Shown here: positions 23,237-37,718 of the stretch, in pieces | How the letters are laid out: every line of letters begins with the position of its first letter | How positions within the stretch are numbered: the stretch's first letter is position 1 | From: Paracoccaceae bacterium | Lineage (GTDB): Bacteria > Pseudomonadota > Alphaproteobacteria > Rhodobacterales > Rhodobacteraceae | Reading direction: 5' to 3' | Length of the DNA stretch: 64,000 bases | Assembly (NCBI GenBank): GCA_027489355.1 | Contig: JAIXZY010000035.1 | Coordinates: 81,773 to 145,772 of the forward strand | Translations under genes and position numbers: made by a program | The notes under the pieces: model-generated | Told to the model about the DNA's origin: nothing | What the model saw: only the letters and a program-made list of their open reading frames with translations | Databases searched by the model: none

Positions 23237-23261
23237 GGAACAAATCTGCGCGGGGCGCGTT
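23237..23261 (+). promoter_or_regulatory. EcfG-type promoter of the 90-residue protein gene
   Basis: GGAAC at 23237-23241, 16 bases, then CGTT at 23258-23261: an exact match to the alphaproteobacterial general-stress consensus GGAAC-N16/17-CGTT. The start codon follows 30 bases later. Confidence 0.75.
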
Positions 23262-23290
23262 TCACCCGATAATGCTTTGGAAGCTTTCAC

Positions 23291-23563
23291 ATGACGCAGG
23301 TCAAGCCACTCAGACCCGTCCCGCCTTTCGCCCTCCCGCTGGAGGGCAGGCTTCTTGCTCATCGCCGCCTTCTGGTGGAACTGATGCGCAATCTCCCCCA
23401 GGACCGTCAGGATGAACTTCTGGACTGGATGGGTGAACGCGCGCTCTACCGGGACGGTCAGGAAGACCCCGGTGCGGTACCCGCCGACGGGGTCGAGCTG
23501 GAGCTGGCGCGGGCCGACGAATTCCAGGTCCTCAAGCGCATGGTCCAGGCCCCGAAAGGCTGA
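23291..23563 (+). CDS. Hypothetical stress-associated protein, 90 residues
   Basis: I do not recognise the family. It is soluble with no signal peptide or helix long enough for a membrane span. The first half is basic and proline-rich (VKPLRPVPPFALPLEG), the middle is amphipathic (LLVELMRNLPQDRQDELLDW), the rest acidic. Codon use is strongly GC3-biased like its neighbours, and a consensus EcfG promoter sits immediately upstream, so it is likely a real general-stress protein. It is alone in its transcription unit, convergent with the TG-repeat protein gene. Confidence 0.65.
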   Translation: MTQVKPLRPVPPFALPLEGRLLAHRRLLVELMRNLPQDRQDELLDWMGERALYRDGQEDPGAVPADGVELELARADEFQVLKRMVQAPKG

Positions 23564-23689
23564 CCTGTCCCGGCGTCTAAGGCCAGAGACAGTCCCCAGA
23601 TACGATCTGAACTCGCGACGGCTGCGGTCTTTCCCTTAGAGGCGCCGCACCCCCGGCGGGATGCGGCCTGTCTTCCATGCACCGCCGCC

Positions 23690-24100
23690 TCAGGGCGAGG
23701 TTGTGGTCCCGGTACCGGACGTGCCGCCGGTGGTGCCCCCGGTCGTCCCGCCGGTGGTTCCACCCGTCGTATCGCCACCCGTTGTGGTGCCGCCGGTCGT
23801 CCCGCCTTCAGGCGCAGGGGCCTCACCGGCGGGCGCGGTCGGCTCGGCGGGTGCTGCCGGAACTGTCTCGGTCGCATCCGGGGTGGCTGCAGGTTCGGTC
23901 GCGGTCGGTTCGGTCGCAGCCGGTTCGACCACGCTGGTGGAGCGGTCGACGCTGAAGGCGATTGCGGCCAGAATGACGGCGGCAAGGACCAGGAAGACCA
24001 GCCACATGCTGGCCCGAGACGTGCGCGAGGGATCGGCGATCCGCCGACCATCGGTCCTCGGCGGGGGCGGCGGCGTTCTGGGGGGCGGTACATCGGTCAT
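23690..24100 (-). CDS. Single-pass membrane protein with a Thr-Gly repeat tail
   Basis: 136 residues: a proline-rich cytoplasmic start (PPPRTPPPPPRT), basic stretch, one transmembrane helix (MWLVFLVLAAVILAAIAFSV, about residues 32-51), then an outside domain of only P, A, E, T, then G and T. The last 35 residues are repeats of a TTGG unit, about seven copies (DNA about 23700-23806). The composition suggests a disordered, possibly wall-spanning or adhesive tail. Its own EcfG-type promoter lies 39 bases upstream. No family recognised. Confidence 0.7.
   Translation of the reverse strand: MTDVPPPRTPPPPPRTDGRRIADPSRTSRASMWLVFLVLAAVILAAIAFSVDRSTSVVEPAATEPTATEPAATPDATETVPAAPAEPTAPAGEAPAPEGGTTGGTTTGGDTTGGTTGGTTGGTTGGTSGTGTTTSP
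23700..23806 (-). repeat. In-frame tandem repeat coding for TTGG units
   Basis: Degenerate 12-base units (ACCACCGGCGGG-like on the minus strand) repeated about seven times inside the 3' end of the 136-residue membrane protein gene. Copies differ at third positions, so the repeat is preserved at protein level. Expansion or contraction in steps of four residues would keep the frame. Confidence 0.6.
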
Positions 24101-24138
24101 GGTGTTTCCTTTCTGGCGAAAAGTCTCCCAAGGCTGTC

Positions 24139-24163
24139 AACCGGGCGGAGCCGCTATTGTTCC
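24139..24163 (-). promoter_or_regulatory. EcfG-type promoter of the TG-repeat membrane protein gene
   Basis: On the minus strand GGAAC (24163-24159), 16 bases, then GGTT (24142-24139), 39 bases before the ATG at 24100. Confidence 0.7.
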
Positions 24164-24266: not shown

Positions 24267-25124
24267 TCAGATCATCGGCTGCCCACCCGTCACCGCGATG
24301 GTTGCCCCCGATACATAGCTCGACATCGGCTCAGCCAGCATCACATAGGCCGAGGCCAGCTCGACCGGCTGGGCCGGGCGCTTCATCGGACTGTCCTGAC
24401 CGAACTTCGAGACCTTCTCTCCAGCCATGCTGGACGGGATGAGAGGCGTCCACACCGGCCCCGGCGCGACGCAGTTCACCCGGATCCCCCGGTCGGCCAG
24501 CAGCTGCGCCAGTCCCACCGTAAAGTTCTGGATCGCCCCTTTGGTGCAGGCATAGACAAGGAGGGTGGGGTTCGGCTTGTCAGCGTTGATCGAGGTCGTG
24601 TTGATGATCGAGCTTCCCGCCCCCATGTGCGGCACCGCCGCCTGGCAGAGATGGAAGATCGCGTCGATGTTGACGGCAAAGGTGCGGTCCCACTCCTTCG
24701 GCGGAATGTCCTCGAAGCTTTCGAACACCGCCTGATGGGCAGCGTTGTTGACCAGGATGTCGATCCGCCCCCATTCCTGCACGACCCTGTCGACGACCCG
24801 CCGGCAGGCGTCGGGATCGCCGAGGTCGGCCTCGATCCGGACGCAGCTCTGCCCCTCGTCCTCGACAAGCCTTGCGGTGTCCTTTGCATCCTCGGTTTCG
24901 GACAGGTAGCACAGCGCGATGTCGGCCCCCTCGCGGGCGAAAGCGATGGCGACGGCGCGCCCGATCCCACTGTCAGCCCCGGTGATCAGCGCCACGCGCC
25001 CCTGCAGACGTCCGGCGCCGACCCAGGTCGTCTCGCCGTGGTCGGGACGCGGCTGCATCGGGACGAAGCTGCCGGGAGGCTCCTGCGTCTGTTCGGGGAA
25101 CGGGGGCTTGGGATAGTCGGTCAT
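24267..25124 (-). CDS. Short-chain dehydrogenase/reductase, general-stress (YhdG/YdaD) type
   Basis: 285 residues. The N-terminal 40 residues are proline- and glutamine-rich (YPKPPFPEQTQEPPG), followed by the Rossmann fold with TGADSGIGRAVAIAFAREGA, NNAAHQ, and the YACTKGA active-site Tyr-x-x-x-Lys variant. This is the subgroup of B. subtilis general stress protein 39 and E. coli YghA. Reduces an unknown carbonyl with NAD(P)H. Its start overlaps the stop codon of the 69-residue gene upstream (4 bases), so they form an operon. Confidence 0.8.
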   Translation of the reverse strand: MTDYPKPPFPEQTQEPPGSFVPMQPRPDHGETTWVGAGRLQGRVALITGADSGIGRAVAIAFAREGADIALCYLSETEDAKDTARLVEDEGQSCVRIEADLGDPDACRRVVDRVVQEWGRIDILVNNAAHQAVFESFEDIPPKEWDRTFAVNIDAIFHLCQAAVPHMGAGSSIINTTSINADKPNPTLLVYACTKGAIQNFTVGLAQLLADRGIRVNCVAPGPVWTPLIPSSMAGEKVSKFGQDSPMKRPAQPVELASAYVMLAEPMSSYVSGATIAVTGGQPMI

Positions 25125-25330
25125 GCCTGCGTGTCCTTTTCGATCCGCTCTCCGTGGCGGACGCTTCCGCCGGGTTGCTTGCGGTTGGCGTCTGGCCGCG
25201 CGTCAGGGTCCTCGCGGTGCCGCCCGGCCGGATCGATCTGTTGCTGCCGCTGGTCGATCACGTTGGGAGCCGGTCGCCGCAGCCTTTCGTTCGCGAAGTC
25301 GGGATCGGGGTCGGGGCTGTTGCTGGACAT
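25121..25330 (-). CDS. Small hydrophilic protein, 69 residues, coupled to the SDR gene
   Basis: Very charged and polar with Asp-Pro repeats at the start (SPDPDPDF) and Arg, Asn, Asp, Gln throughout; no hydrophobic core, so probably disordered. It starts with ATG behind a GAAGGAGGCGAAAG ribosome binding site and its stop overlaps the SDR start. No family recognised. The excellent ribosome binding site and the overlap support that it is expressed. Confidence 0.6.
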   Translation of the reverse strand: MSSNSPDPDPDFANERLRRPAPNVIDQRQQQIDPAGRHREDPDARPDANRKQPGGSVRHGERIEKDTQA

Positions 25331-25407: not shown

Positions 25408-25432
25408 GACGAAGCCGGGCAAGAACAGTTCC
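25408..25432 (-). promoter_or_regulatory. Near-consensus EcfG-type promoter of the small protein-SDR operon
   Basis: GGAAC (25432-25428), 16 bases, then CGTC (25411-25408) on the minus strand; the last base differs from CGTT. It lies 78 bases before the ATG at 25330. The predicted transcript would run through the hairpin at 25355-25381, so the hairpin would have to be leaky or belong to the leader. Confidence 0.45.
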
Positions 25433-25435
25433 GGG

Positions 25436-25933
25436 TCAGGCGGCTTCCAGCGCCGCCTGGTTGATGGACCCGTCAGCAAGCTGGGTAAGCGACTCGTCGG
25501 TCATCCCTTCCTCCTGCAGCGTCTGGTCCAGAAGCTTGGCGGCATCCTTCATGCCCATCACCTCGGCCCAGCGGCGCAGCGTGCCATAGCGGGCGATTTC
25601 GTAATGTTCGACCGCCTGGGCCGCAGCGATGAGGCTCGCGTCCAGTGCCGGGCTGTCGGCAAAAGCCTGCAACGCCTCTTCGCCTTCCTCGATGATCCCG
25701 TCGATCGCCGGGCAGGTCTTGCCGCGGGCGGGCTTGCCCATCAGCTCGAACACCTGCTGCAGGCGCTCGACCTGCATCTCGGTCTCGTCCTTGTGCTTCT
25801 GGAAGGCAGCCTTCAGGTCCGGCGAGTTCGCCCCGCGCGCCATCTTCGGCAGGGCGCGGAGGATCTTCCGTTCGGCATAGTAGATGTCCTTGAGCGTTTC
25901 GTGGAACAGTTCTTCGAGGGTCTTCGTCTTCAT
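25436..25933 (-). CDS. YciE/DUF892 ferritin-like stress protein
   Basis: 165 residues, all helical. It begins TLEELFHETLKDIYYAERKI, the DUF892 hallmark, followed by E/H-rich helices (KHKDETEMQVERLQQVFE; EHYEIARYGTL) that form a di-iron site in E. coli YciF/YciE. Induced in general stress in many proteobacteria; exact role unknown. The ATG at 25933 has AAGGAG 7 bases upstream, preferred over the ATG at 25978. A consensus EcfG-type promoter lies in the gap after the sigma factor gene. Confidence 0.85.
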   Translation of the reverse strand: MKTKTLEELFHETLKDIYYAERKILRALPKMARGANSPDLKAAFQKHKDETEMQVERLQQVFELMGKPARGKTCPAIDGIIEEGEEALQAFADSPALDASLIAAAQAVEHYEIARYGTLRRWAEVMGMKDAAKLLDQTLQEEGMTDESLTQLADGSINQAALEAA

Positions 25934-25976: not shown

Positions 25977-26001
25977 AACCGGACTGCGGGATGAAAGTTC
26001 C
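25977..26001 (-). promoter_or_regulatory. EcfG-type promoter of the YciE-type gene
   Basis: GGAAC (26001-25997), 16 bases, GGTT (25980-25977) on the minus strand, 44 bases before the ATG at 25933 and directly after the sigma factor stop codon at 26010. Confidence 0.75.
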
Positions 26002-26009: not shown

Positions 26010-26483
26010 TCAGACCTCCTCCCCCAGGGCCGTCTGCAGAAGCTTGCGCCCGCGGTTGATCCGGCTTTTGATCGTGCCGATGTCGCAGCCCAGGATTTCT
26101 GCGGCGGACTGGTAGCTTTCCCCGGTCACCAGGACGAGCATCACCGCCTCGCGGTAGGCCTGCGGCAGGCCAAGAAGGGCTGCCTCGATCTCGCGGCCGC
26201 GGACATGCCAGTATTGCCGCTCGGGCGTGGTGGGCACGTTCGAGATGCAATCCTCGGCCCCCGGGCGTTCCCGCGCCAGCTTTACACGATCGTTGTAGAA
26301 CCGGTTGCGCATGATGGTGAACAGCCAGGCGCGCATGTTGGTGCCTGGGGTGTAGGACTGGGCGCTGGCGATGGCCCGGACCAAAGTGTCCTGCACCAGA
26401 TCGTCGGCATCGCCGTAGCGGCCGGTCAATGACCGCGCAAAAAGGCGTAGTGCCGGGATATGACTCAGCACATCATCGGACAT
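26010..26483 (-). CDS. ECF sigma factor, EcfG (ECF15)-like
   Basis: 157 residues. Sigma-2 region: HIPALRLFARSLTGRYGDAD, then DDLVQDTLVRA and NMRAWLFTIMRN. Sigma-4 region: LGLPQAYREAVMLVLVTGES followed by SAAEILGCDIGTIKSRINRG. These match the general-stress EcfG group. The ATG at 26483 has AGGAG upstream. Neither NepR nor PhyR, usually beside the main ecfG gene, is adjacent; this may be a second copy or a rearranged locus. No EcfG-type promoter was found for the gene itself. It sits in the middle of at least ten EcfG-type promoters, its likely targets. Confidence 0.75.
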   Translation of the reverse strand: MSDDVLSHIPALRLFARSLTGRYGDADDLVQDTLVRAIASAQSYTPGTNMRAWLFTIMRNRFYNDRVKLARERPGAEDCISNVPTTPERQYWHVRGREIEAALLGLPQAYREAVMLVLVTGESYQSAAEILGCDIGTIKSRINRGRKLLQTALGEEV

Positions 26484-26600
26484 GAAGGTAGGCTCCTGCT
26501 GACTGCCGGGGTTTAATGCCCGCCACCGAACCCGGTTCCGGCCCGTCGCAGCCGCGTGATCCGTTCCGGCGGGATCCAGCCGAGACGGTCGCGGACCGTG

Positions 26601-26626
26601 GGAACCGACCGAAGGTAACAGCGGTT
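26601..26626 (+). promoter_or_regulatory. EcfG-type promoter of the ku1-ligD operon
   Basis: GGAAC at 26601-26605, 17 bases, GGTT at 26623-26626; the Ku start codon follows 44 bases later. Confidence 0.7.
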
Positions 26627-26669: not shown

Positions 26670-27509
26670 ATGGCACCGCGGGCGAACTGGAAGGGCCGGA
26701 TACGGCTGGGCGAGATTTCCATCGGCGTCGCGCTTTACACGGCCGCCGCGACCTCGGACCGGGTGACGCTGCACATGGTCAACCGACGCACCGGCAACAG
26801 GTTGAAGAACGAGCTCGTGGACTCGGAAACCGGAAAGCCGGTGGACAAGGACGATGCGGTGATGGGCTATGAAGTCGATTCGGGCGATTACATTCTGCTT
26901 GAGCAGGACGAAATCACCGCCGCCGTGCCCGCCTCGGACAAGGCTTTGCCGATCGAGGCCTTCATCCGCTGCCAGGACATCGACACGCTGTATTTCGACC
27001 GGCCATACTACCTTGGCCCCGCTGACGCCGCCTCGGTCGAGGCCTACACGCTTCTGCGCGAGGGGATGGAGCGCGAAAGCGTCGCCGCGCTGGCCCGGAC
27101 CGTCCTCTTTCGCCGTTTGCGCACCCTGATGATCCGGCCGCATGGCGCAGGGTTCATCGCCAACACACTCAACTTCGACTACGAGGTCCGGTCGGCGGAT
27201 CGCGCCTTTGCCGACATCCCGGACCTGAAGATCGAAGGCGAGATGCTGGAGCTGGCCGAGCACATCATCAAAACCAAGCTTGGGGATTTCGATCCGCACG
27301 CCTTCGACGACCGCTACGAGGCCGCGCTGGCCGACCTGGTGAAGGCGAAGCTCGAAGGACGCGCTCCGCCGCGCCGGAAGGAAGTGCCGCGGGAAAAGGT
27401 CGTGGATCTGATGGCGGCGCTGCGCGAAAGCGCGAAGGCGGCGAAGGGGCGGACGGCGCCGTCGAAGGCTGCCCCGAAGGAAAAGGCACCGCGGCGGAAG
27501 GCGGGCTGA
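26670..27509 (+). CDS. ku: Non-homologous end joining protein Ku (copy 1)
   Basis: 279 residues, standard bacterial Ku length. Core pattern: WKGRIRLGEISIGVALYTA at the start, HMVNRRTGNRLKNELVDSET, and YILLEQDEI. The C-terminal tail (about 230-279) is Lys/Arg/Ala-rich, which in Ku proteins contacts DNA and LigD. The homodimer rings the DNA ends and recruits LigD. The ATG at 26670 follows GGGGGG; a TTG at 26655 is less likely. It is one base upstream of ligD, so the two form one operon. Confidence 0.92.
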   Translation: MAPRANWKGRIRLGEISIGVALYTAAATSDRVTLHMVNRRTGNRLKNELVDSETGKPVDKDDAVMGYEVDSGDYILLEQDEITAAVPASDKALPIEAFIRCQDIDTLYFDRPYYLGPADAASVEAYTLLREGMERESVAALARTVLFRRLRTLMIRPHGAGFIANTLNFDYEVRSADRAFADIPDLKIEGEMLELAEHIIKTKLGDFDPHAFDDRYEAALADLVKAKLEGRAPPRRKEVPREKVVDLMAALRESAKAAKGRTAPSKAAPKEKAPRRKAG

Positions 27510-27510
27510 G

Positions 27511-29964
27511 ATGGTGCTGGAAACCTACCAGTCGATGCGCGACTTCGACGCGACGCCCGAGCCGAAGGGACGCAAGCGCAAGTCCAAGGGCGATCCGGTC
27601 TTCGTCATCCAGAAGCATGCGGCCACGCGGCTGCACTACGACCTGCGGCTGGAGATGGATGGCGTGCTGAAAAGCTGGGCCGTGACGCGGGGCCCAAGCC
27701 TTGTCCCCGGCGAGAAGCGGCTGTCGGTCCATGTCGAGGACCACCCGATGGACTATGGCGACTTCGAGGGCACGATTCCCGAGGGACAGTATGGCGCTGG
27801 GACCGTCATCGTCTGGGACCGTGGGACGTGGACGCCGGTCTTCGACGCGGCCAAGGGCTATGCCAAGGGCCATCTGGAGTTCGAGTTGAAGGGTGAAAAG
27901 CTGACCGGGCGTTGGCACCTGATCCGGATGCGTGGCAAGCCCCGGGAGAAGCGCGAAAACTGGCTGCTGATCAAGGGCGAGGACGACAGCGCCCGCGACG
28001 AGACCGCCCCGGACATTCTTGAGGAACGGCCGGAGTCGGTGAAAACGGGCCGCAGGATCGAAGAGGTCGGGGGCAAGTCCGCGCCGAAGACCAAGCCGCG
28101 AAAAGCCCCACTGGAACCGGTGGTCCCCAAGGGCAAGATGCCGGGATTCATCCCGCCCATGCTGGCGACGCTTGTCAAGGCCACACCGGGCGACGACCGC
28201 TGGCTGCACGAGATCAAGTTCGACGGCTACCGCATCCAGGCCCAGATCTCCGGGGGCCAGGTGCGGCTTTACACGCGCTCGGGCCGCGACTGGACGGACC
28301 GGTTCGGCAAGGACATTACCGGGACACTTGCCGCCCTTCCGGTGCGTCAGGCCGTCATCGACGGCGAAGTGGTGGTCGAGGCGTCGGGCCGGTCGTCCGA
28401 CTTCTCGGCCCTGCAGGCGGATCTGGCCGAAGGACGGACCGACCGCATGGTCTATTACGTCTTCGATCTGTTGCACCTGGACGAACGTGACCTGACCGGC
28501 CTGCCCCTGGTCGATCGCAAGCGGCTGCTGGAGGGGCTGGTAGCCCCCGCCTCGGGCGCAGTGAGGATCAGCGAGCATCTGTCCGACAAGGGCGAGGTGG
28601 TCCTGCGCCATGCCTGCAGACTGGGGCTGGAAGGCATCATCTCAAAGCTGCGGGACAGCCCTTACCTTCCCGGACGCGGCAAGGCCTGGGTGAAGTCGAA
28701 ATGCTCGGCCCGGCAAGAGTTCGTGGTGGCGGGATTTGTGCCCTCGACCGTCTCTGCCCGTGCCATCGGATCGCTCGTGCTGGGCGTCTATGACGGCGAG
28801 AGGCTGAAACCGGTCGGGCGGGTCGGAACCGGGTTCTCGGTGACGCTGGCCGAAGAGCTTTACGAAAGGCTTCAGGCTCTGGAGATGAATGGGCAGCCCT
28901 TCGACCCGCCGCTTCCCCGGCCCGAGGCGCGGGGCGTCCATTTCGTGCGGCCCGATTTGGTGGCCGAGGTCGATTTCCGTGCCTGGACCGGGGATGGCAA
29001 CCTGCGTCACGCCTCGTTCAAGGGGTTGCGAGAGGACAAGGATGCGCGCGAAGTGACGGGCGAGGGCCTCCCCGCGCCGCAATCCGAGCCTGTGCCCGCC
29101 CCAGTGCGGCGGATCAAGCTTACCCATCCCGAGCGCGTCTACTGGCCGGAGGAGGGCGTGACCAAGGCGGGCCTTGCGGACTATTACACCGAGGTCTGGC
29201 CTTGGATCGCGCCGCATATCGTCGGCCGACCGCTGGCGCTGCTTCGATTGCCGGACGGGGTCGGAGGACGGCAGCAGTTCTTCCAGAAGCACGAATGGAA
29301 GGGGATGAATGCCGCCATCCTGAAAGTGCAGGACCCGGCCGAGCCGAAGGATGCGCCGTCGCTCGCCATTGCCGACCTCGACGGACTGATCGCGCTGGCC
29401 CAGTCGGCGGCGCTGGAGATCCACCCCTGGGGCAGCACGCTGAAGGACTGGGAGCGTCCCGACCGGATCGTCATCGACCTGGACCCCGGCGACGGGGTGG
29501 AGTGGTCGGACCTCGTGCGGGCGGCGGAAGATGTGCGCGAGCGGCTGCAGGGCAAGGGGCTTGCGGCCTTCGCAAAGACGTCGGGCGGAAAGGGGTTGCA
29601 TGTGGTCGCTCCCTTGAAGCCAAAGGCGAAATGGCCCGAGGTGAAGGCTTTCTGCCACGGCCTTGCGCGCGAGATGGCGTTGGAGGACCCTTCGCGATAT
29701 GTCGCGACCATCACCAAGTCCAAGCGGCGGGGAAAGATCCTGGTCGACTACCTGCGGAACCAGCGCGGGGCGACGGCGGTGGCCGCCTACTCCACTCGCG
29801 CCCGGCCGGGGGCGCACGTCTCGGCCCCCGTGACCTGGGACGAACTGACGTCCGGCATCGCGCCTTCCGACTTTACCGTTCTGACCATGCCCACACGGCT
29901 GGCGAACCTGCGACACGACCCGTGGGAAGGCTTTGCCGAGGCCGCGCGTCCGCTGAAGGACTAG
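27511..29964 (+). CDS. ligD: Multifunctional DNA ligase D (PE-LIG-POL)
   Basis: 817 residues with three modules. 3'-Phosphoesterase (about 10-160): FVIQKHAATRLHYDLRLE then HPMDYGDFEGTIPEGQYGAG. ATP-dependent ligase (about 205-520): HEIKFDGYRIQ with nucleophile Lys236, and an IDGEVVV motif. Primase-polymerase (about 540-817): IDLDPGDG with metal ligands Asp656 and Asp658. The order is that of Pseudomonas LigD, not the mycobacterial POL-PE-LIG. It trims, fills and seals Ku-bound ends. Its TAG stop overlaps the convergent stop codon of the second ku gene at CTAG (29961-29964). Confidence 0.95.
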   Translation: MVLETYQSMRDFDATPEPKGRKRKSKGDPVFVIQKHAATRLHYDLRLEMDGVLKSWAVTRGPSLVPGEKRLSVHVEDHPMDYGDFEGTIPEGQYGAGTVIVWDRGTWTPVFDAAKGYAKGHLEFELKGEKLTGRWHLIRMRGKPREKRENWLLIKGEDDSARDETAPDILEERPESVKTGRRIEEVGGKSAPKTKPRKAPLEPVVPKGKMPGFIPPMLATLVKATPGDDRWLHEIKFDGYRIQAQISGGQVRLYTRSGRDWTDRFGKDITGTLAALPVRQAVIDGEVVVEASGRSSDFSALQADLAEGRTDRMVYYVFDLLHLDERDLTGLPLVDRKRLLEGLVAPASGAVRISEHLSDKGEVVLRHACRLGLEGIISKLRDSPYLPGRGKAWVKSKCSARQEFVVAGFVPSTVSARAIGSLVLGVYDGERLKPVGRVGTGFSVTLAEELYERLQALEMNGQPFDPPLPRPEARGVHFVRPDLVAEVDFRAWTGDGNLRHASFKGLREDKDAREVTGEGLPAPQSEPVPAPVRRIKLTHPERVYWPEEGVTKAGLADYYTEVWPWIAPHIVGRPLALLRLPDGVGGRQQFFQKHEWKGMNAAILKVQDPAEPKDAPSLAIADLDGLIALAQSAALEIHPWGSTLKDWERPDRIVIDLDPGDGVEWSDLVRAAEDVRERLQGKGLAAFAKTSGGKGLHVVAPLKPKAKWPEVKAFCHGLAREMALEDPSRYVATITKSKRRGKILVDYLRNQRGATAVAAYSTRARPGAHVSAPVTWDELTSGIAPSDFTVLTMPTRLANLRHDPWEGFAEAARPLKD

Positions 29965-30770
29965 CGTTTCCGCGATGCCGGTTTTTCGGCGGCGATGCTA
30001 CGCTTCAGGGCGTCGATGATGCTGACCACCTTCCCGCTGTCGCGCGGCTCCTCCGCCTTTGCCTTGCGCGCGGGTTTACGGCCCTTGCGCTTTTGCTCGA
30101 TCAGATCCAGCAGGCGATCCTGGACCGGGTCCTCGACCATTTTCGGGTCCCATTCAACAGTCCGGCTGTCGATCAGCTTGCTGACAAGTTTCAGCGCCTC
30201 GCCGTCCGGCTTTGCCGCGCGCAAGTCGTCGAAATAGTCGCGCTCGTCGCGGACCTCGTCGCCGTAGCGCAAGGTCCAGAGCACGATGCCCTTGCCGCGC
30301 GGGTCCAGCATCACCGCCCGCTCGCGGCGATAGAGGACCAGGCGCGCGATCCCCACTGTTCCGGTGGACCGCATCGCGTCGCGGATGACCGAGAAGGCCT
30401 CTTCTGCCACGGCATCGTCCGGGATGAGGAAGTGCGGGCGATCGAACCAGATCCAGGCGATCCTGTCCGATGGCACGAACTCTTGGATGTCGATGGTACG
30501 CGTCGTTTCCAGCGCGACCTCGTCCAGTTCTTCCTCCTCAAGAATGACGTGGTCGTCCTCGCCCCGCGGATAGCCGCGCGCCTGATCCTCGTCCGCGACC
30601 CGTTTTCCGGTCTCGGCGTCGATGTACTGGCGCTGAAGGCGATTGCCGGTGCGACGGTTCAATGTGTGAAATCGCAGACGGTTGCCTTCTGTCACGGCGG
30701 GCATCATCGCCACGGGACAGGTGACGAGCGAGAGCTTCAGGTAGCCCTTCCAGAACGTGCGCGGCGGCAT
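29961..30770 (-). CDS. ku: Non-homologous end joining protein Ku (copy 2)
   Basis: 269 residues; WKGYLKLSLVTCPVAMMPAV at the start and LNRRTGNRLQRQYIDAETGK are Ku core motifs. Core similarity to copy 1 is clear but modest, so the duplication is old. The tail is basic (RKGRKPARKAKAEEPRDSGK) with an end resembling that of copy 1. Two Ku proteins may form a heterodimer, as shown in Sinorhizobium meliloti for its paired Ku proteins. The ATG at 30770 has AAAGGGGG upstream. Own EcfG-type promoter, convergent with ligD. Confidence 0.9.
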   Translation of the reverse strand: MPPRTFWKGYLKLSLVTCPVAMMPAVTEGNRLRFHTLNRRTGNRLQRQYIDAETGKRVADEDQARGYPRGEDDHVILEEEELDEVALETTRTIDIQEFVPSDRIAWIWFDRPHFLIPDDAVAEEAFSVIRDAMRSTGTVGIARLVLYRRERAVMLDPRGKGIVLWTLRYGDEVRDERDYFDDLRAAKPDGEALKLVSKLIDSRTVEWDPKMVEDPVQDRLLDLIEQKRKGRKPARKAKAEEPRDSGKVVSIIDALKRSIAAEKPASRKR

Positions 30771-30795: not shown

Positions 30796-30821
30796 AACGA
30801 TGAACACGACCCGGCGGTTCC
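30796..30821 (-). promoter_or_regulatory. EcfG-type promoter of the second ku gene
   Basis: GGAAC (30821-30817), 17 bases, CGTT (30799-30796) on the minus strand, 26 bases before the ATG at 30770. It is back to back with the promoter at 30835-30859, so one 64-base block drives both directions. Confidence 0.7.
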
Positions 30822-30834: not shown

Positions 30835-30859
30835 GGAACATTCCGGCAAGCCAACGGTT
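30835..30859 (+). promoter_or_regulatory. EcfG-type promoter of the Q/N-rich protein gene
   Basis: GGAAC at 30835-30839, 16 bases, GGTT at 30856-30859, 55 bases before the ATG at 30914. Confidence 0.7.
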
Positions 30860-30913: not shown

Positions 30914-31099
30914 ATGGCGAACAATCCGAACAACCCGCAACAGGGTCAGCAGGGTCAGCAGAACCAGCAGCAGAATCAGCAAGGCCAGCGCGGCCAGCAG
31001 CAGCAGGAGAACCAGGACCGGAACAAGACCCAGCAGGGCGGGCAGTCCGGTCAGGGCCAGCAGCAACAGAACAACCAGCAGAAGGGTCAGCAGCGCTGA
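30914..31099 (+). CDS. Gln/Asn-rich low-complexity protein, 61 residues
   Basis: After MANNPNNP the chain is almost entirely Q, N, G with scattered K, R, E, D; there are no aromatic or branched residues after the start except one T. Composition resembles a prion-like or intrinsically disordered domain. CAG/CAA/AAC codons are repeated but interrupted, and the frame is open and GC3-typical. ACAGGAG stands 6 bases before the ATG, and an EcfG-type promoter 55 bases upstream, so it should be a stress-induced protein. Similar short Q-rich proteins are annotated only as hypothetical as far as I know. Divergent from ku copy 2. Confidence 0.65.
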   Translation: MANNPNNPQQGQQGQQNQQQNQQGQRGQQQQENQDRNKTQQGGQSGQGQQQQNNQQKGQQR

Positions 31100-31267: not shown

Positions 31268-31477
31268 TTACTCCTCGACGACAGGAGCGGCGGCTGGATT
31301 GGTCCCGCTTTCGGCCGGAACAACCGTGTCAGGCGTGGGGGAGTTGCCTTGAGCGGCCTCCTCGAACTGCCAGTAGATGATCAGGCCGACGGCAAAGATC
31401 ACGACAACGGCCATCCCGATGAGGGGGCCGATATGGCGGCGCTTTTCGGTTTCCAGATTGGTTTTCGGGGCGGACAT
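31268..31477 (-). CDS. Single-pass membrane protein, 69 residues
   Basis: N-terminal polar part (SAPKTNLETEKRR), one transmembrane helix (GPLIGMAVVVIFAVGLIIYW, about 17-36), then an acidic, Pro/Ala/Thr-rich outside tail ending VVEE. The plan resembles the 136-residue protein at 23690 without the repeats. A GGGAGA site precedes the ATG and an EcfG-type promoter lies 33 bases upstream. No family recognised. Confidence 0.7.
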   Translation of the reverse strand: MSAPKTNLETEKRRHIGPLIGMAVVVIFAVGLIIYWQFEEAAQGNSPTPDTVVPAESGTNPAAAPVVEE

Positions 31478-31509: not shown

Positions 31510-31534
31510 AACCCCCTGCCGTCCGGAACGTTCC
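31510..31534 (-). promoter_or_regulatory. EcfG-type promoter of the 69-residue membrane protein gene
   Basis: GGAAC (31534-31530), 16 bases, GGTT (31513-31510) on the minus strand, 33 bases before the ATG at 31477 and directly after the stop codon of the FAH-family gene at 31535. Confidence 0.7.
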
Positions 31535-32692: not shown

Positions 32693-32801
32693 CGGTCTGT
32701 CCCTCCCTGTCGCAGTGGCAGATGGATAGCCCTTGACCTGGCCTGCGTCTACGTCAACCTGCCCGTGCCACCCCGCCAGACGCCCGCCGAAGGTCATCGC
32801 C

Positions 32802-34337
32802 ATGCCGCTTGACGAAACCGCTGCCGCACTGCTGCTGAACCCCGCTGACGACGTCGCCGTCGCCCGCCGCCGCATCGGCGAGGGAGAGGCCACGGGGATC
32901 CCCGGCATCAGCGCGAACCAGCTGATCCCGCGCGGGCACAAGGTCGCGCTCAGGGCGCTGACGGCGGGCATGGTGCTGCGCAAGTTCGGCCAGGTGATCG
33001 GGGTCGCGACGCAGGACATTGCGGCAGGCGACCACGTCCATTTGCACAACCTGGCGATGGTCGATGCGGCGTCAGACCACCAGTTCGCCGTCGAAACCGA
33101 CGAGACCGGAATGCTCCCGCCGGAGCTGTGTCGCACCTTCATGGGCTTCGACCGCGGAGCAGGCGGTGTGGGGACGCGGAACTTCATCGGGATTGTCACC
33201 ACGGTCAACTGCTCGGCCACCGTGTCACGCTACATCGCGGACCATTTCAACCGGATGGGCGGGCTGGACGGGTTCGACAACGTGGACGGCGTCGTCGCCC
33301 TGACCCACGGGCTTGGCTGCGCCATCAGCAGCGCGTCCGAGGGCTACCGCTACCTGACGCGGACGATCCAGGGCTATGCCAGGCACCCTAACTTCGGCGG
33401 AATCATCATGGTGGGCCTTGGGTGCGAGACGAACCAGATCCAGCCGATCCTGGAGCATTACAAGCTTGAGGAAGGCGAACGATTCCGCACGATGAACATC
33501 CAGGCGATGGGCGGCACGAGGAAGACCATCGACGCAGCCTGCGGCATGATCCGCGAGATGCTGCCGGGCGTGAACGCGGCCCGGCGGACGAAGCAGCCGC
33601 TCTCCGGGCTGAAGGTCGCGCTGGAATGCGGGGGGTCCGACGGCTATTCCGGCATCACCGCCAATCCGGCGCTGGGGGTGGCATCGGACCTGATCGTGCG
33701 GAACGGCGGCACCTCCTGCCTGGCCGAGACGCCCGAAATCTACGGGGCAGAGCACCTTCTCACCCGCCGCGCCGTCACGCGCGAGGTCGGTCAGAAGCTG
33801 ATGGACCGCATCGACTGGTGGCGCGACTACACTGCCCGCAACGGTGCCGAACTGAACAACAACCCCAGCTATGGCAACAAGCAGGGCGGGCTGACGACCA
33901 TCCTGGAAAAGTCGCTGGGCGCGGTGGCCAAGGGCGGCTCCATGCCCTTGAAAGCCGTCTATGAATACGCCGAGATCATCGACCAGCCGGGCTTCGTCTT
34001 CATGGACACGCCCGGATATGACCCGGTTGCCGTGACCGGCCAGGTCGCGGGCGGCTGCAATGTCGTCTGCTTCACAACCGGGCGCGGCTCGGTTTCAGGC
34101 TGGAAGCCGGCGCCGACGATCAAGATCGCCACCAACACCGAGATGTACGACCACATGCGCGAGGACATGGACATCGACACCGGCAGCATTGCCACGGGGT
34201 CGGAAACCATCAACGCCGCAGGCAAGCGCATCTTCGAACGCATCCTTTCCGTCGCCTCTGGCGAAAGGACCGTGAGCGAAGCCTTCGACTACGGCGACAA
34301 CGAGTTCGTCCCCTGGCAGGTCGGCGCGATCACCTGA
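32802..34337 (+). CDS. UxaA/altronate dehydratase family protein
   Basis: 511 residues. N-terminal SAF domain (about 1-95, ANQLIPRGHKVALRAL then DHVHLHNLAM), then the altronate/galactarate dehydratase core with RNFIGIVTTVNCSATV, HGLGC and IIMVGLGCETNQIQPILEHY, whose cysteines and histidine hold the iron. It dehydrates an aldonate or aldarate to the 2-keto-3-deoxy acid. The ATG at 32802 follows GAAGGTC. The divergent FAH-family gene, 109 bases away, likely acts next. No sugar-acid transporter is adjacent. Confidence 0.85.
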   Translation: MPLDETAAALLLNPADDVAVARRRIGEGEATGIPGISANQLIPRGHKVALRALTAGMVLRKFGQVIGVATQDIAAGDHVHLHNLAMVDAASDHQFAVETDETGMLPPELCRTFMGFDRGAGGVGTRNFIGIVTTVNCSATVSRYIADHFNRMGGLDGFDNVDGVVALTHGLGCAISSASEGYRYLTRTIQGYARHPNFGGIIMVGLGCETNQIQPILEHYKLEEGERFRTMNIQAMGGTRKTIDAACGMIREMLPGVNAARRTKQPLSGLKVALECGGSDGYSGITANPALGVASDLIVRNGGTSCLAETPEIYGAEHLLTRRAVTREVGQKLMDRIDWWRDYTARNGAELNNNPSYGNKQGGLTTILEKSLGAVAKGGSMPLKAVYEYAEIIDQPGFVFMDTPGYDPVAVTGQVAGGCNVVCFTTGRGSVSGWKPAPTIKIATNTEMYDHMREDMDIDTGSIATGSETINAAGKRIFERILSVASGERTVSEAFDYGDNEFVPWQVGAIT

Positions 34338-34376: not shown

Positions 34377-34401
34377 GGAACATTTTGCGCGCCGCCCTGT
34401 T
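34377..34401 (+). promoter_or_regulatory. EcfG-type promoter of the DUF2934-LLM-treZ operon
   Basis: GGAAC at 34377-34381, 16 bases, TGTT at 34398-34401, 42 bases before the ATG at 34443. Confidence 0.7.
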
Positions 34402-34442: not shown

Positions 34443-34685
34443 ATGGACGGAACACCACGCATTCACGAAGACCAGATCCGCGAGCGCGCCTATAGCCTGT
34501 GGGAAGCCGAGGGATGCCCGGACGGCTGCGCCGAACGGCATTGGCAGCAGGCGGAACGCGAGTTGCAGCAAGGTGACAACGCCGGCATGGCCGAGGCGCG
34601 CAACGCCAGCGAGGCAGAACTTCAAGGCGGCGCGCAGACCTCGGACGCGCCGGGTGTTGCCGGCCGGTCCCGCCGGAGCGCCTGA
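34443..34685 (+). CDS. DUF2934-type small protein
   Basis: 80 residues. The core EDQIRERAYSLWEAEGCPDG followed by HWQQAEREL is the DUF2934 pattern (IRxRAYxLWExxGxPxGxxxxxWxxAE). The tail is polar and alanine-rich. Found widely in alphaproteobacteria, often near stress genes; function unknown. GGAGGGAG stands 3 bases before the ATG, rather close. It is followed 48 bases later by the LLM oxidoreductase and treZ on the same strand, so the EcfG-type promoter could drive all three. Confidence 0.8.
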   Translation: MDGTPRIHEDQIRERAYSLWEAEGCPDGCAERHWQQAERELQQGDNAGMAEARNASEAELQGGAQTSDAPGVAGRSRRSA

Positions 34686-34733: not shown

Positions 34734-35690
34734 ATGGCCCGCATCGGCTTTCACGCCTCGCACGAACAATTCGCCCCGTCCCGCCTGCTGGCGCTATGCC
34801 GTCAAGCGCAGGACGCGGGCTTTTCGGTCATCAAATGCTCGGACCATTTCCATCCGTGGAGTGAGCGTCAGGGCCAGTCCGGGTTTTCGTGGGCCTGGCT
34901 TGGGGCGGCGATGCAGGCCTGCGACCTGCCCTTCGGATCAATCGCCGCACCGGGCTACCGCAACCATCCCGCGGTGCTGGCCCAGGCCGCGGCCACCCTG
35001 GCCGAGATGTTTCCCGACCGCTTCTGGCTGGCGCTTGGCAGCGGCGAGGCAATCAACGAGGCGATGACCGGCCTGCCCTGGCCCGAGAAGGCAGAGCGGA
35101 ATGCGCGCCTGAGGGAATGCGCCCAGATCATCCGGGCGCTGCTTTCAGGCGACGAAGTCACCCATCGCGGCCGTGTGACGGTGGTCTGCGCGAGGCTTTA
35201 CACCCGACCAACACGGCCGCTTCCGCTGTATGCCGCGGCCGTCAGCCCCGAGACAGCCGCCGAAGTGGCCGGATGGGCGGACGGGCTGCTGACCGTGGGC
35301 GGCAATGCGGAAAACGTCGGCAAGGTCCTGGATGCCTTCCGCGAGAACGGCGGGGCGGGAAAACCCGTCCATATTCAGCATGCCCTGTCCTGGGCGCCCG
35401 ACCGCGCCACTGCGATGACCGAGGCGATGCACCAGTGGCGCCATGCCGTGCTGGGCGGAGAGGCGATGTGGGATCTGCGCCGCCCCGCCGACTTTGACAG
35501 CGCCTGCGCGGTCGCGTCCGAGACGGCACTTGCCGAAAGATTTCCTGTCTCGGACGATCTGGGCCGCCATGCCGCCGACATCGCCGCGCTTCTGGCTCTG
35601 GATGCCACGGTCCACCTGCATTGCGTCGGACGTAACCAGGAGGCGTTCGTCGATGCCTTCGGGGCCAAGGTCCTTCCCCAGCTTGGCTGA
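34734..35690 (+). CDS. LLM-class flavin-dependent oxidoreductase (non-F420 subfamily)
   Basis: 318 residues, luciferase-like TIM barrel. Pattern: IGFHASHEQFAPSRLLALCR at the start, KCSDHFHPW for the flavin pocket, and LALGSGEAINE. The close group is the 'probable non-F420 flavinoid oxidoreductase' family of proteobacteria, thought to use FMN. Substrate unknown. It lies between a DUF2934 gene and treZ (7-base gap to the treZ ATG), which points to stress expression. Confidence 0.75.
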   Translation: MARIGFHASHEQFAPSRLLALCRQAQDAGFSVIKCSDHFHPWSERQGQSGFSWAWLGAAMQACDLPFGSIAAPGYRNHPAVLAQAAATLAEMFPDRFWLALGSGEAINEAMTGLPWPEKAERNARLRECAQIIRALLSGDEVTHRGRVTVVCARLYTRPTRPLPLYAAAVSPETAAEVAGWADGLLTVGGNAENVGKVLDAFRENGGAGKPVHIQHALSWAPDRATAMTEAMHQWRHAVLGGEAMWDLRRPADFDSACAVASETALAERFPVSDDLGRHAADIAALLALDATVHLHCVGRNQEAFVDAFGAKVLPQLG

Positions 35691-35697
35691 TTTCCGA

Positions 35698-37476
35698 ATG
35701 ACCCAGATATCAAGACCCGATCCTGCGGCCATGCCATCCGCCCCGCATCTCTGGGGTGCCCGCCCCTGTGGCAATGGCTGGTGGGACCTTGCGCTTTGGG
35801 CACCGTCGGTCGATGCAATCACGCTGCACCTTGGCCATCTGGACAACCGGATTGCCATGCTGCGCGGCGAGAACGGAGTGCACCGCGCCCGCGCCGAGGC
35901 CAGCGAAGGCACACGCTATGCGTTCTCGGCCACCGGCGAACCTTTCGCCGATCCCACCTCGCTGCAGCAGGAGCTGGGCGTGGAAAGCTGGTCCCTTCTG
36001 CGCGACCCCGAGAACTTCCGGCCGTCGCCCCGGCCCTGGGTCGGCCGGCCTTTCGACGAGGCTGTATTTGCCGAACTGCACATCGGCAGCTTCACCCCCG
36101 AAGGCACCTTCACGGGCGCCGCCCGATCGCGCGAGCTGCGCAGGCTGGCCGAAAGCGGAATAACCGCGATCGAACTGATGCCGGTCGGCCAGTTTCCCGG
36201 CACTCGCGGCTGGGGCTATGACAGCGTACTGCCCTGGGCCCCGCAGCACAGCTACGGCAAGCCCGAGGATCTTGCCGCGCTGGTCGACGAAGCGCACGGG
36301 CTGGGACTGATGGTGTTTCTGGACGTGGTCTTCAACCACTTCGGGCCGCAGGGTTGCGCCCTGACCGAGATTTGCCCGGAATTCTTCCGGGACGAGCACA
36401 ACGACTGGGGTCGCAAGATCGACTACAGCCGTCCCGAAGTGCGCGCCTATTTCATCCAGTGCGCGCTGCACTGGCTGGAGGCCTATCACCTGGACGGACT
36501 GCGCCTGGACGCGGTTCACGAGATGGAGGATCCGACCGAACCTCATGTCGTCGTGGAACTGGCACAGACGATACGCCAACGGGACTGGGGCCGTACGGTG
36601 CATCTCGTTGCCGAGGACAGCACGAACAAGGTCGGCTGGTACGATCCGGCATCGGGCCTCTTCGACGCGTCCTGGGACGACGACTACCACCATGCCCTGC
36701 ATGTCCTGCTGACCGGGGAAAGCTTCGGCTACTACAAGGATTTCGTGAAGGACCCTGCCGCCGACCTGCGTCTGGCATTGCGCGACGGCCAGGCGCTTCA
36801 GGGCCAGCCGCGCCCGGCGGGGCTGGAGGAAAAGGGCGAACCGTCGGGCCACCTGCCGCCGCGTTGCTTCGTGAACTTCAACCTGAACCACGACCACGCC
36901 GGAAACCGCCCGCGCGGGGAACGTCTGATTTCCCTCATCGGCGCCGACCGCGCCCTGGTCGCGCATGCCTTCCTGCTGGCTGCGCCCTATACGCCGCTGA
37001 TCTTCATGGGAGAGGAGATCGGCTCTCGCCAGCCGTTCCCGTGGTTCGCGGATTATGGCGGCAAGACCGCCCGAAAGATGCGCGAGGGCCGGGTGAAGCA
37101 GTTTCAGGACCTCCCCGGCAAGGGCGCGGACATGATCGATCCGTTCGACCGTTCGACCCTGCGCCGGTCCTGGCCCTATGCCCGGCCCGAACCCCGCGAC
37201 TCGGCCCTCTGGCTTGCCGTGACCCGCACGGTCCTGGACCTTCGCCGGACGAAGCTGTTGCCCATCTTCCGCTCGGGGCGTCGCCGCGAATTCCAGATCG
37301 ACCCGCTGGGAGATCGCGGGATCACCGCGCTTTGGCATTTCACGGACGGGACGCTTCAGGCCGACGTCGCCTTCGACCTGGGCGACCCGGAACCGGAGAC
37401 ACCGCCCGGCTATCAGCCGCTTTACCAGCTGGGCCAGGCGGGAACCCCCCGGTTCCGGCTGGGCCGTCTGCCCTGA
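35698..37476 (+). CDS. treZ: Malto-oligosyltrehalose trehalohydrolase
   Basis: 592 residues, normal for TreZ (GH13). N-terminal carbohydrate-binding segment (WDLALWAPSVDAITLHL), barrel with VFNHFGPQG, DGLRLDAVHEM (nucleophile Asp271), VAEDSTNK (acid Glu306) and NHDHAGN (Asp399). It releases trehalose from glucan chains whose end was converted by TreY. No treY, glgX or glgB is in the window, unlike the common treYZ cluster. Trehalose is an osmoprotectant, which fits stress control. The ATG at 35698 has a weak ribosome binding site; the ATG at 35731 is an alternative. Confidence 0.9.
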   Translation: MTQISRPDPAAMPSAPHLWGARPCGNGWWDLALWAPSVDAITLHLGHLDNRIAMLRGENGVHRARAEASEGTRYAFSATGEPFADPTSLQQELGVESWSLLRDPENFRPSPRPWVGRPFDEAVFAELHIGSFTPEGTFTGAARSRELRRLAESGITAIELMPVGQFPGTRGWGYDSVLPWAPQHSYGKPEDLAALVDEAHGLGLMVFLDVVFNHFGPQGCALTEICPEFFRDEHNDWGRKIDYSRPEVRAYFIQCALHWLEAYHLDGLRLDAVHEMEDPTEPHVVVELAQTIRQRDWGRTVHLVAEDSTNKVGWYDPASGLFDASWDDDYHHALHVLLTGESFGYYKDFVKDPAADLRLALRDGQALQGQPRPAGLEEKGEPSGHLPPRCFVNFNLNHDHAGNRPRGERLISLIGADRALVAHAFLLAAPYTPLIFMGEEIGSRQPFPWFADYGGKTARKMREGRVKQFQDLPGKGADMIDPFDRSTLRRSWPYARPEPRDSALWLAVTRTVLDLRRTKLLPIFRSGRRREFQIDPLGDRGITALWHFTDGTLQADVAFDLGDPEPETPPGYQPLYQLGQAGTPRFRLGRLP

Positions 37477-37486
37477 CCGTCAGGGC
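37470..37486. terminator. Short hairpin between treZ and the convergent small gene
   Basis: GCCCTGA-CCG-TCAGGGC, a perfect 7-bp stem that covers the treZ stop codon and the end of the 54-residue gene. No T-run on either side, so its role as terminator is uncertain. Confidence 0.3.
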
Positions 37487-37644
37487 GCCGTACCGATCAC
37501 CGTTCCATCTTCGCGCACCATCGTGACCCGTCGCCGCCGTTCCCCATCCAGCCGCTCGGCCTGGCGCGACGACCAGAAGAGGCCCACCAACGAGATCGCC
37601 AGCAGGATCAGGAACACGACCGCTCCCAAAGTACGTTCGTCCAT
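37480..37644 (-). CDS. Single-pass membrane protein, 54 residues
   Basis: One transmembrane helix close to the start (LGAVVFLILLAISLVGLFWS, about residues 6-25), then a basic stretch (RQAERLDGERRRRVTMV) and a short end. The AAGGAG 6 bases before the ATG at 37644 decides the start over one at 37695. Its own promoter is a perfect EcfG consensus. No family recognised; tiny membrane proteins of this kind are common in stress regulons. Confidence 0.65.
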   Translation of the reverse strand: MDERTLGAVVFLILLAISLVGLFWSSRQAERLDGERRRRVTMVREDGTVIGTAP

Positions 37645-37693
37645 GACTGTTCTCCTTGCCTTGGTCCGGCCCGTGCCGAACCCATGTCCCTGC

Positions 37694-37718
37694 AACGTGC
37701 GACCAGTCAGGTTGTTCC
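37694..37718 (-). promoter_or_regulatory. EcfG-type promoter of the 54-residue membrane protein gene
   Basis: GGAAC (37718-37714), 16 bases, CGTT (37697-37694) on the minus strand: an exact consensus match, 50 bases before the ATG at 37644. Confidence 0.75.

Follow-up and report, generated by a model that had tools for sequence, protein, structure and literature searches.

Which sigma factor reads a cluster of EcfG-type promoter boxes that surrounds an EcfG-like sigma gene, when the canonical PhyR-NepR-EcfG set of the same genome lies on another contig? The question is raised by positions 23237-37718 of a 64-kb stretch of DNA (here denoted the window; G000:C36:81773-145772) from the 4.2-Mb genome of a Paracoccaceae bacterium whose nearest named relatives, judged by the sigma gene, are Tabrizicola. 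An earlier note had described these positions as a compact EcfG-type stress island with non-homologous end joining (NHEJ), a ferritin-like DUF892 protein, an SDR-family protein and several small proteins, a description that both position and conservation support. We propose, with a probability of about 0.6, that the island is a second tier of the general stress response arranged around its own sigma gene, denoted ecfG2, in which the canonical EcfG (EcfG1) would switch on ecfG2 and EcfG2 would read boxes of the GGTT type.

The island sigma factor is an orphan EcfG paralogue

The window sigma matched PF04542, PF08281 and PF22029 (PhyR_sigma2) above cut-off; among the 25 of 83 NCBIfam families listed, only the broad superfamily TIGR02937 did so. 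The protein is thus of EcfG type, as the earlier note had it, but it is not the canonical EcfG. The canonical set lies on contig 7, where PhyR (355.6 bits) and NepR (57.9 bits), both above cut-off, accompany an EcfG and a histidine kinase. These are the only above-cut-off matches to the two regulators in the genome, and neither nepR nor phyR is found beside the window sigma, which is 39% identical to the canonical EcfG of its own genome. The window sigma is an orphan, non-canonical EcfG paralogue (EcfG2) in a genome with a canonical locus. Residues that differ between the EcfG2 and the canonical clade include, in window numbering with the canonical residue in brackets, I38 (W), M58 (L), R61 (T), E122 (F) and C133 (V). 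A third EcfG-like sigma (40% identical) is encoded on contig 4 (L053, G000:C4:36543-37240), with a sub-cut-off NepR-like match just downstream. We rejected it as a reader of the boxes, as the surrounding 20 kb hold no GGAAC-N16/17-[CGT]GTT box.

The two sigma factors are mostly flanked by different types of box

Boxes (GGAAC-N16/17 followed by a four-base -10 element, by which we name them) were counted around EcfG2 genes at 38 loci; L020, L021, L025, L030, L034 (short or duplicate), L055 and L062 were excluded from the density, neighbour-gene and box-type counts, L037-L040 are not part of the clade, and the longer stretches L149-L156 took the place of L056-L061, L063 and L064. Within 1 kb of the sigma gene we found 10.5 boxes per 10 kb at EcfG2 loci versus 0.8 for a reversed control pattern, and 10.2 versus 0.4 at canonical ecfG. 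As these densities are similar, clustering of boxes is itself common to both sigmas.

The type of box is not. Leaving aside, in both groups, same-strand boxes in the 200 nt ahead of the sigma gene, the first kilobase around EcfG2 genes held 47 GGTT, 14 TGTT and 7 CGTT boxes, and 43 of the 47 GGTT boxes have A or T at base 6, the base after GGAAC. The corresponding count at 23 canonical loci was 40 CGTT, 4 TGTT, 3 GGTT and 1 CATT, with C or G at base 6 in 36 of the 40 CGTT boxes. The shift extends to 1-10 kb (odds ratio 7.5, p = 2e-11, for pooled and hence non-independent loci). Six altered -35 patterns, pooled as a control, gave GGTT:CGTT counts of 90:78 and 45:38, that is, no shift, with single patterns varying both ways. 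We also compared the two loci within each of 20 genomes. In a 2-kb range the GGTT share was higher at the EcfG2 locus in 14 genomes, lower in none and tied in two (no data in four); in a 6-kb range it was higher in 16, lower in one and tied in none (no data in three).

The box in front of ecfG2 itself is of another kind. A GGAAC-N16/17-N[AG]TT box precedes 33 of 42 EcfG2 genes (CATT 18, CGTT 9, AATT 3, TGTT 2, GGTT 1), so that 27 of the 33 carry a C-type (CATT or CGTT) box. The reversed pattern occurs upstream of 0 of the 42 genes, and shuffled sequences gave a mean of 0.28 and a maximum of 3.

The earlier note had taken the boxes as EcfG promoters. The motif alone does not settle which sigma reads it. 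The first -10 base together with base 6 point to the EcfG2 paralogue as the likely reader of the GGTT boxes.

Boxes of the island stand before genes and are mostly conserved

All ten EcfG-type boxes named earlier were found where they had been placed and are oriented towards a start codon; their distance to it, previously put at 26-78 nt, was short as claimed and measures 25-77 nt. We found a further box, GGAAC-N16-CATT at 26515 (minus strand), which had been missed and lies 31 nt 5' of the sigma gene. An eleventh box noted earlier, at 53506 on the minus strand (GGTT, N17), is present and plausible, 34 nt 5' of the ATG of a 121-aa open reading frame (ORF; 53106-53471, minus strand). A scan with a relaxed -10 element (CGTT, GGTT, TGTT, CGTC, CATT, CAGT) detected 17 boxes in the window, 11 of them non-coding and at most 100 nt upstream of a start, in a hand-made gene list that does not contain ORF 53106-53471; all 11 lie inside 23237-37718. 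A perfect CGTT box at 60477 is intragenic. Boxes with N16 and up to one mismatch numbered 29 in the window versus 13.4 +/- 3.9 in shuffled sequence (0 of 100 shuffles reached 29). N17 boxes alone showed no enrichment in the window, with 13 versus 14.3 in shuffles.

To follow the boxes in relatives, each gene was aligned to loci with sigma relatives and the best box within 180 nt upstream was scored. The window's own rows were left out, a perfect box was GGAAC-N16/17-SGTT, and some rows are near-duplicates, L020 and L055 being the same species. Nine box-bearing units have a perfect box in 60 of 81 homologue rows and a box with at most one mismatch in 75 of 81. For genes without a box here (SDR, LigD, LLM, TreZ-like, FAH, LigC) the figures were 2 of 33 and 4 of 33. 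Both totals omit the 69-aa unit at 25408, methylpurine-DNA glycosylase (MPG), the exonuclease and the sigma gene.

Perfect boxes precede Ku2 in 5/5 rows, the 69-aa transmembrane protein in 6/6, the 54-aa transmembrane protein in 2/2, DUF892 in 17/21 and the Gln/Asn-rich protein, which is of low complexity, in 12/13. The Ku1 box was perfect in 4 of 6 relatives, the 90-aa gene box in 2 of 4 rows and the DUF2934 box in 5 of 11, with at most one mismatch in all rows of each (6/6, 4/4 and 11/11). For the 136-aa gene it was perfect in 7 of 13 rows; the protein is of low complexity and its distant rows are doubtful. The near-match CGTC box at 25408 (minus strand) is present as the earlier note had it, but its conservation is doubtful: 4 of 9 rows of this unit are perfect (L022, L023, L024, L031), and it is absent in the nearest relatives, L018 and L019. 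MPG, which has no box in the window, has a perfect box in L018 and a one-mismatch box in L019 (1/2 perfect, 2/2 with at most one mismatch), and the exonuclease gave 0/2 and 2/2. A GGATC variant (GGATC-N16/17-CGTT) stands 38-40 nt 5' of the ligase-associated exonuclease gene in all three genomes (window, L018, L019) and is possibly a variant -35 element.

Genome-wide distribution and extent of the island

A genome-wide motif search, proposed in the earlier note, detected 192 GGAAC-N16/17-SGTT sites versus 136 for the reversed pattern; there is an overall excess, but most matches could be background. The excess sits in GGTT (105 versus 63 reversed) and scarcely in CGTT (87 versus 73). With A or T at bases 6-7, the whole genome holds 28 GGTT sites versus 3 reversed, and 12 CGTT sites versus 11. 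The densest 15-kb clusters, counted on 187 listed sites (181 after merging overlaps), are this island with 8, a second block, 33 kb further left, with 7 and the canonical phyR/nepR/ecfG locus with 6. As uniform scatter of the sites gives a mean maximum of 4.5 per 15 kb and a 99.9th percentile of 8, the cluster count of the island, taken alone, is just at that limit.

The second block (C36:67707-72145; region G000:C36:67707-72170, L054 5935-10398) carries 8 boxes, 6 of them with an ORF downstream. By eye, these ORFs encode a PRC-barrel-like protein, a Thr-rich protein that begins with a signal-like stretch, Gly/Ser/Asp-rich repeat proteins in which RYGRF motifs occur, and small proteins of disordered or membrane type. 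Second block and window island form a single island in L018 and L019. The ~32 kb between the blocks (window 1-22600 and ~10 kb further left) hold mostly transport and catabolic genes, including, among 10 proteins scanned, HpaB, peptide and other ABC transporters and an amine oxidase. Judged by sequence, the island is larger than 23237-37718, and the second block belongs with it.

Beyond the two blocks, 6 of 20 A/T...GGTT sites (L162, L163, L165, L167, L172, L177) are non-coding on their strand and precede an ORF by 23-46 nt with a ribosome-binding-like sequence; by eye, one of these ORFs would encode a ferritin-like protein and another a PRC-barrel protein. At least 6 of the 20 fall in same-strand coding frames. 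We also noted that GGAACATGTATTCCGAGCAGGGGTT and near copies recur across many genomes; the copy of this genome (L168) is antisense to a long coding frame and is a standing false positive for this motif.

Box counts in the genus and the family

Genomes were grouped by sigma identity (at least 50% in the family, at least 78% in the genus), so that canonical status in this comparison goes by identity and not by NepR. Among 32 genus genomes the mean number of GGAACWW-GGTT boxes was 23.2 in those with EcfG2 (9 genomes), 8.1 in those with canonical EcfG only (10) and 8.5 in the rest (13). The canonical-only genomes show no excess (8.1 versus 8.9 in the control). In the family, 11 EcfG2 genomes compared with 78 canonical-only genomes were enriched in GGTT (p = 0.005) and also in CGTT (p = 0.04). 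A rule by which GGTT replaces CGTT in EcfG2 genomes failed family-wide, as both types are commoner there and their ratio does not differ. The GGTT bias is visible near sigma genes and in the counts inside the Tabrizicola group. As a separate observation, 11 of the 32 genus genomes gave no EcfG-like match at E 1e-20; seven of these are listed as more than 95% complete and may lack the pathway.

The EcfG2 clade spans orders and plasmids

In midpoint-rooted trees, EcfG2 sequences formed a clade of 34 rows (support 99/98) and, with plasmid sequences added, of 44 rows (98/96), the latter tree omitting long or distant rows of the former. Of published ECF15 members the trees include R. etli EcfG2 only, and sampling follows similarity to the window sigma. 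Tabrizicola is sister to Pleomorphomonas, a member of another order (99/94 in the 34-row-clade tree, 92/90 in the 44-row-clade tree), and Devosia groups with Pseudogemmobacter (100/95 in the 34-row-clade tree). These cross-order groupings point to transfer between lineages. The sigma of R. etli plasmid p42f joins the clade on a long branch, its position being unsure. We searched 24 genomes for a canonical EcfG, 21 with EcfG2 and 3 outside the clade. Of the 21 EcfG2-bearing genomes, 20 also have a canonical-type EcfG of at least 53% identity as a separate gene; Devosia has only a 40% match.

A relative of the window sigma was detected in 628 plasmid records at E 1e-15, with the strongest matches lying on Paracoccus plasmids; at least one weaker match is a canonical EcfG (Dinoroseobacter). 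On Dinoroseobacter shibae pDSHI02 (L128) we observed a plasmid-borne response regulator-NepR-EcfG-histidine kinase locus of canonical layout. Neighbour genes were examined in 16 plasmid regions. Near EcfG2, a P. aminovorans plasmid carries DUF892, SDR, DUF3008, PRC-barrel and Ku genes, and a conjugative Ketogulonicigenium plasmid carries ferritin-like, SDR, PRC-barrel, catalase and MPG genes; stress-type neighbours are missing in the plasmid regions of P. alcaliphilus, P. aestuarii and P. methylovorus.

At 32 EcfG2 loci outside Tabrizicola, DUF892 was found at 12 versus 0 of 23 canonical loci (p = 6e-4) and SDR at 15 versus 1 of 23 (p = 7e-4). PRC-barrel genes did not differ significantly (9/32 versus 7/23). 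Those at EcfG2 loci that have a near box mostly show A/T...GGTT; of their homologue rows at canonical loci (29-38% identical), 7 of 8 are boxless, too few boxes for a gene-controlled comparison of box type. NHEJ was rejected as a constant part of EcfG2 islands: Ku (2/32) and LigD (5/32) versus 0/23 at canonical loci is not significant.

Taken beyond this genome, the pattern suggests a horizontally spreading second general-stress regulon of Alphaproteobacteria, in which EcfG2 would read GGAAC[A/T]-N15/16-GGTT and canonical EcfG GGAAC[C/G]-N15/16-CGTT, the first -10 base would sort the two tiers, ecfG2 would stand under a canonical-type box and the island would move between orders, at times on plasmids. 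To this wider statement we give even odds.

Gene content of the window island

The coordinates are collected in Table 1. The NHEJ part proposed earlier is present, with matches above cut-offs, and in fact has two Ku genes flanking LigD. Release of trehalose, also proposed, rests on a TreZ-like match that was found but is 4 bits under the NCBIfam cut-off, in a gene that lacks its own perfect box (0 of 5 homologue rows perfect, 2 of 5 with at most one mismatch). FAH and the galactarate/altronate dehydratase-like gene (31535-34337) were rejected as island members, having no box. L018 and L019 lack the dehydratase-like gene (32805-34337) at this position, and it looks like a later insertion. Scans of the window with Rfam and for tRNA gave no matches.

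Ku of S. meliloti is controlled by RpoE2, and the enterobacterial yciGFE-type genes are RpoS-dependent, an example of DUF892 (YciF-type) and small hydrophilic proteins as stress genes under another sigma factor.

Table 1. Boxes and genes of the island and its surroundings, in window coordinates.
Feature	Coordinates	Strand	Basis
Methylpurine-DNA glycosylase (MPG), left edge of block	22590..23156	-	PF02245 E 1.7e-51; without box here
Box CGTT, 29 nt 5' of 90-aa gene	23237..23261	+	Motif scan
90-aa conserved small protein	23291..23563	+	No Pfam/NCBIfam match; homologues L018, L019, L028, L057
136-aa Thr/Gly-rich protein, one membrane stretch by eye	23690..24100	-	ORF; profile matches all sub-cut-off
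Box GGTT, 38 nt 5' of 136-aa gene	24139..24163	-	Motif scan
SDR-family oxidoreductase, gene 2 of unit with 69-aa hydrophilic gene	24267..25124	-	PF13561 E 1e-61; without own box
69-aa hydrophilic small protein	25121..25330	-	ORF; homologues L018-L020, L022-L024
Near-match box CGTC, 77 nt upstream of 69-aa gene, doubtful in this genome	25408..25432	-	Motif scan
DUF892 ferritin-like protein	25436..25933	-	PF05974 E 1e-62
Box GGTT, 43 nt 5' of DUF892 gene	25977..26001	-	Motif scan
Orphan EcfG-type ECF sigma factor (EcfG2)	26010..26483	-	Sigma70_r2, Sigma70_r4_2, PhyR_sigma2 matches
Box GGAAC-N16-CATT (canonical-type), 31 nt 5' of sigma gene	26515..26539	-	Relaxed motif scan
Box GGTT (N17), 43 nt 5' of Ku1	26601..26626	+	Motif scan
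Ku protein 1 (NHEJ)	26670..27509	+	TIGR02772 263.7 bits, cut-off 150
LigD (3'-phosphoesterase, ligase, polymerase domains)	27511..29964	+	NF004628 1011 bits, cut-off 895; TIGR02776 643, cut-off 373
Ku protein 2 (NHEJ)	29961..30770	-	TIGR02772 283.8 bits, cut-off 150
Box CGTT (N17), 25 nt 5' of Ku2	30796..30821	-	Motif scan
Box GGTT, 54 nt 5' of Q/N-rich gene, divergent from Ku2 box	30835..30859	+	Motif scan
61-aa Gln/Asn/Gly-rich protein, hydrophilin-like by eye	30914..31099	+	Sequence; no Pfam/NCBIfam match
69-aa small protein, single transmembrane stretch by eye	31268..31477	-	ORF; homologues L018, L019, L022-L024, L031
Box GGTT, 32 nt 5' of 69-aa transmembrane gene	31510..31534	-	Motif scan
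Box TGTT, 41 nt 5' of DUF2934 gene	34377..34401	+	Motif scan
DUF2934 protein, gene 1 of unit with LLM and TreZ-like genes	34443..34685	+	PF11154 E 3.5e-16
LLM-class oxidoreductase	34734..35690	+	TIGR03885 447.4 bits, cut-off 398.7
TreZ-like malto-oligosyltrehalose trehalohydrolase	35731..37476	+	TIGR02402 534.5 bits, just under cut-off 538.8
54-aa small protein, one transmembrane stretch by eye	37480..37644	-	ORF; identity 88% L018, 87% L019
Box CGTT, 49 nt 5' of 54-aa gene	37694..37718	-	Motif scan
Near-box GGATC-N17-CGTT, 38 nt 5' of exonuclease gene, use putative	37725..37750	+	Motif scan
Ligase-associated DNA exonuclease	37789..38787	+	TIGR04122 475.7 bits, cut-off 325
ATP-dependent DNA ligase	38784..40352	+	TIGR04120 771.5 bits, cut-off 400
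Box GGTT (N17), 34 nt 5' of 121-aa ORF 53106-53471	53506..53531	-	Motif scan

Discussion

In the cascade that we propose, stress would act through PhyR-NepR to free the canonical EcfG1, and EcfG1 would use the C-type box of ecfG2 to transcribe that gene. EcfG2, without nepR beside it, would then read the GGAAC[A/T]-N-GGTT units of the island, and both sigmas would read its C-type boxes, those of Ku2 and of the genes for the 90-aa and 54-aa proteins. The products (two Ku and LigD, DUF892, SDR, hydrophilin-like and small membrane proteins) would protect non-growing, dried or oxidised cells, a role suggested by their protein families; the second ligase and its exonuclease, behind the near-box GGATC, would perhaps take part in joining double-strand breaks. 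It is from sequence that we infer promoter activity of the boxes in this strain, the GGTT preference of EcfG2, the switching on of ecfG2 by EcfG1 and the roles of the products.

The upper step has a precedent. In Caulobacter and Sphingomonas, SigU/EcfG2 is under the control of SigT/EcfG1 and is not bound by NepR (PMC4814048). The lower step, EcfG2 reading GGTT units, is new as a claim: extra EcfG copies, GAAC-N16,17-C/GGTT promoters and EcfG control of ku-ligD are already known, and the open-access literature searched gave, in its listings and in excerpts of PMC4814048, PMC7083833, PMC3892343, PMC3188799 and PMC8103513, no report of a paralogue-specific -10 element.

A number of observations weigh against the proposed cascade. 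The -10 types of the island are mixed (GGTT 5, CGTT 3, TGTT 1, CATT 1, CGTC 1), and some EcfG2 genes have no island, with no box within 5 kb in L119 and L121 and one in L114. From genome to genome, the boxes within 1 kb of canonical ecfG are probably there for one and the same set of regulator genes, so that the loci are not independent and sigma is confounded with target gene. In the genus, the difference in box counts (p = 0.0012) falls to p = 0.05 after correction by the control, two genomes with EcfG2 (G268, G289) have no excess over control and a third (G282) hardly any, and the excess may reflect one acquisition event. The family GGTT/CGTT ratio does not differ significantly (p = 0.10, or 0.40 when the Tabrizicola group is taken out). 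In the 34-row-clade tree the EcfG2 clade groups with Azospirillaceae and actinobacterial sigmas (95/76, on long branches) and not with canonical EcfG, which leaves its origin unsure. From the literature, Sphingopyxis EcfG1 and EcfG2 both transcribe CGTT, TGTT, CATT and GGTT promoters in vitro, a change of CGTT to CATT or TGTT reduces transcription, and the order is reversed there, EcfG2 driving ecfG1 (PMC7083833). The M. extorquens consensus permits either C or G; the authors who put it forward infer that all paralogues recognise promoters in a similar way. R. etli ecfG2 depends only partly on ecfG1 (PMC4814048). As recognition overlaps in vitro and CATT lowers transcription, the choice of box would be a preference and not exclusive reading, and the CATT box before ecfG2 is possibly weak.

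These points give room to a different arrangement, in which the NepR-gated EcfG1 is the chief reader of the island, EcfG2 only amplifies weakly and has no separate dialect, as proposed for Caulobacter SigU, and the GGTT bias comes from the target genes. We regard it as improbable, at a little less than one chance in four. It agrees with the lack of a separate regulon for Caulobacter SigU (PMC4814048), with the targets shared by the Sphingopyxis EcfGs (PMC7083833), with the travelling together of gene content and sigma, by which box type and gene are confounded, and with the non-significant family-wide ratio test; yet the bias is kept at 1-10 kb over mixed genes and pairwise within genomes, and the canonical-only genomes of the genus have no GGTT excess.

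Less probable still is that EcfG2 works in parallel to EcfG1, switched on by another signal, such as growth arrest via (p)ppGpp, or held by an unrecognised anti-sigma factor. R. etli offers the model: ecfG2, carried on p42f, runs parallel to ecfG1 (PMC3892343) and depends on (p)ppGpp in stationary phase (PMC3188799). The p42f sigma belongs to the EcfG2 clade, on its long branch, and a DUF892 gene adjoins it. However, the EcfG-type boxes, mostly C-type, before 33 of 42 EcfG2 genes fit EcfG control; the R. etli gene is among the nine without one. That a GC-rich genome has produced the boxes by chance, a view to which the background level of the genome-wide search and several intragenic sites lend some colour, is next to impossible given their position, a density more than 10-fold over control at 38 loci and their conservation before the same genes, which contradicts it.

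The cascade from EcfG1 through ecfG2 to GGTT boxes can be set beside known systems. R. etli EcfG2 (PF00052, p42f), the type case among non-canonical EcfG factors, is likewise an orphan ECF15 sigma without nepR or phyR, with a DUF892-type gene adjoining and GGAAC...GGTT boxes nearby; we infer from plasmid and context that it is the gene RHE_RS26680. It differs in being 41% identical to the window sigma and 46% to its own canonical EcfG, and in the 40 kb examined there is no box before its own gene and no Ku or LigD. A motif search in EcfG2-dependent genes of R. etli found no motif (PMC3892343). Caulobacter SigU and the EcfG2 of Sphingomonas and Sphingopyxis are alike in being a second EcfG in a PhyR-NepR-EcfG cell under hierarchical paralogue control. 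Compared by description, Caulobacter and Sphingopyxis differ in that shared targets are reported and that Sphingopyxis EcfG2 is the master, at the nepR locus. The general stress regulon of Sphingopyxis also has Ku and LigD behind EcfG-type promoters (PMC7083833), whereas the window has two Ku genes with separate boxes, flanking LigD within an EcfG2 island.

About half of the completed alphaproteobacterial genomes surveyed have extra EcfG copies, for whose role there is no satisfactory explanation (PMC3892343). The box statistics presented here give a candidate pattern and a candidate cascade for such copies, both of them testable. If the reading holds, these bacteria would have a second, portable layer of the stress response, one that contributes DNA end joining together with dormancy proteins, and the regulons of non-canonical EcfG factors would be predictable from sequence.

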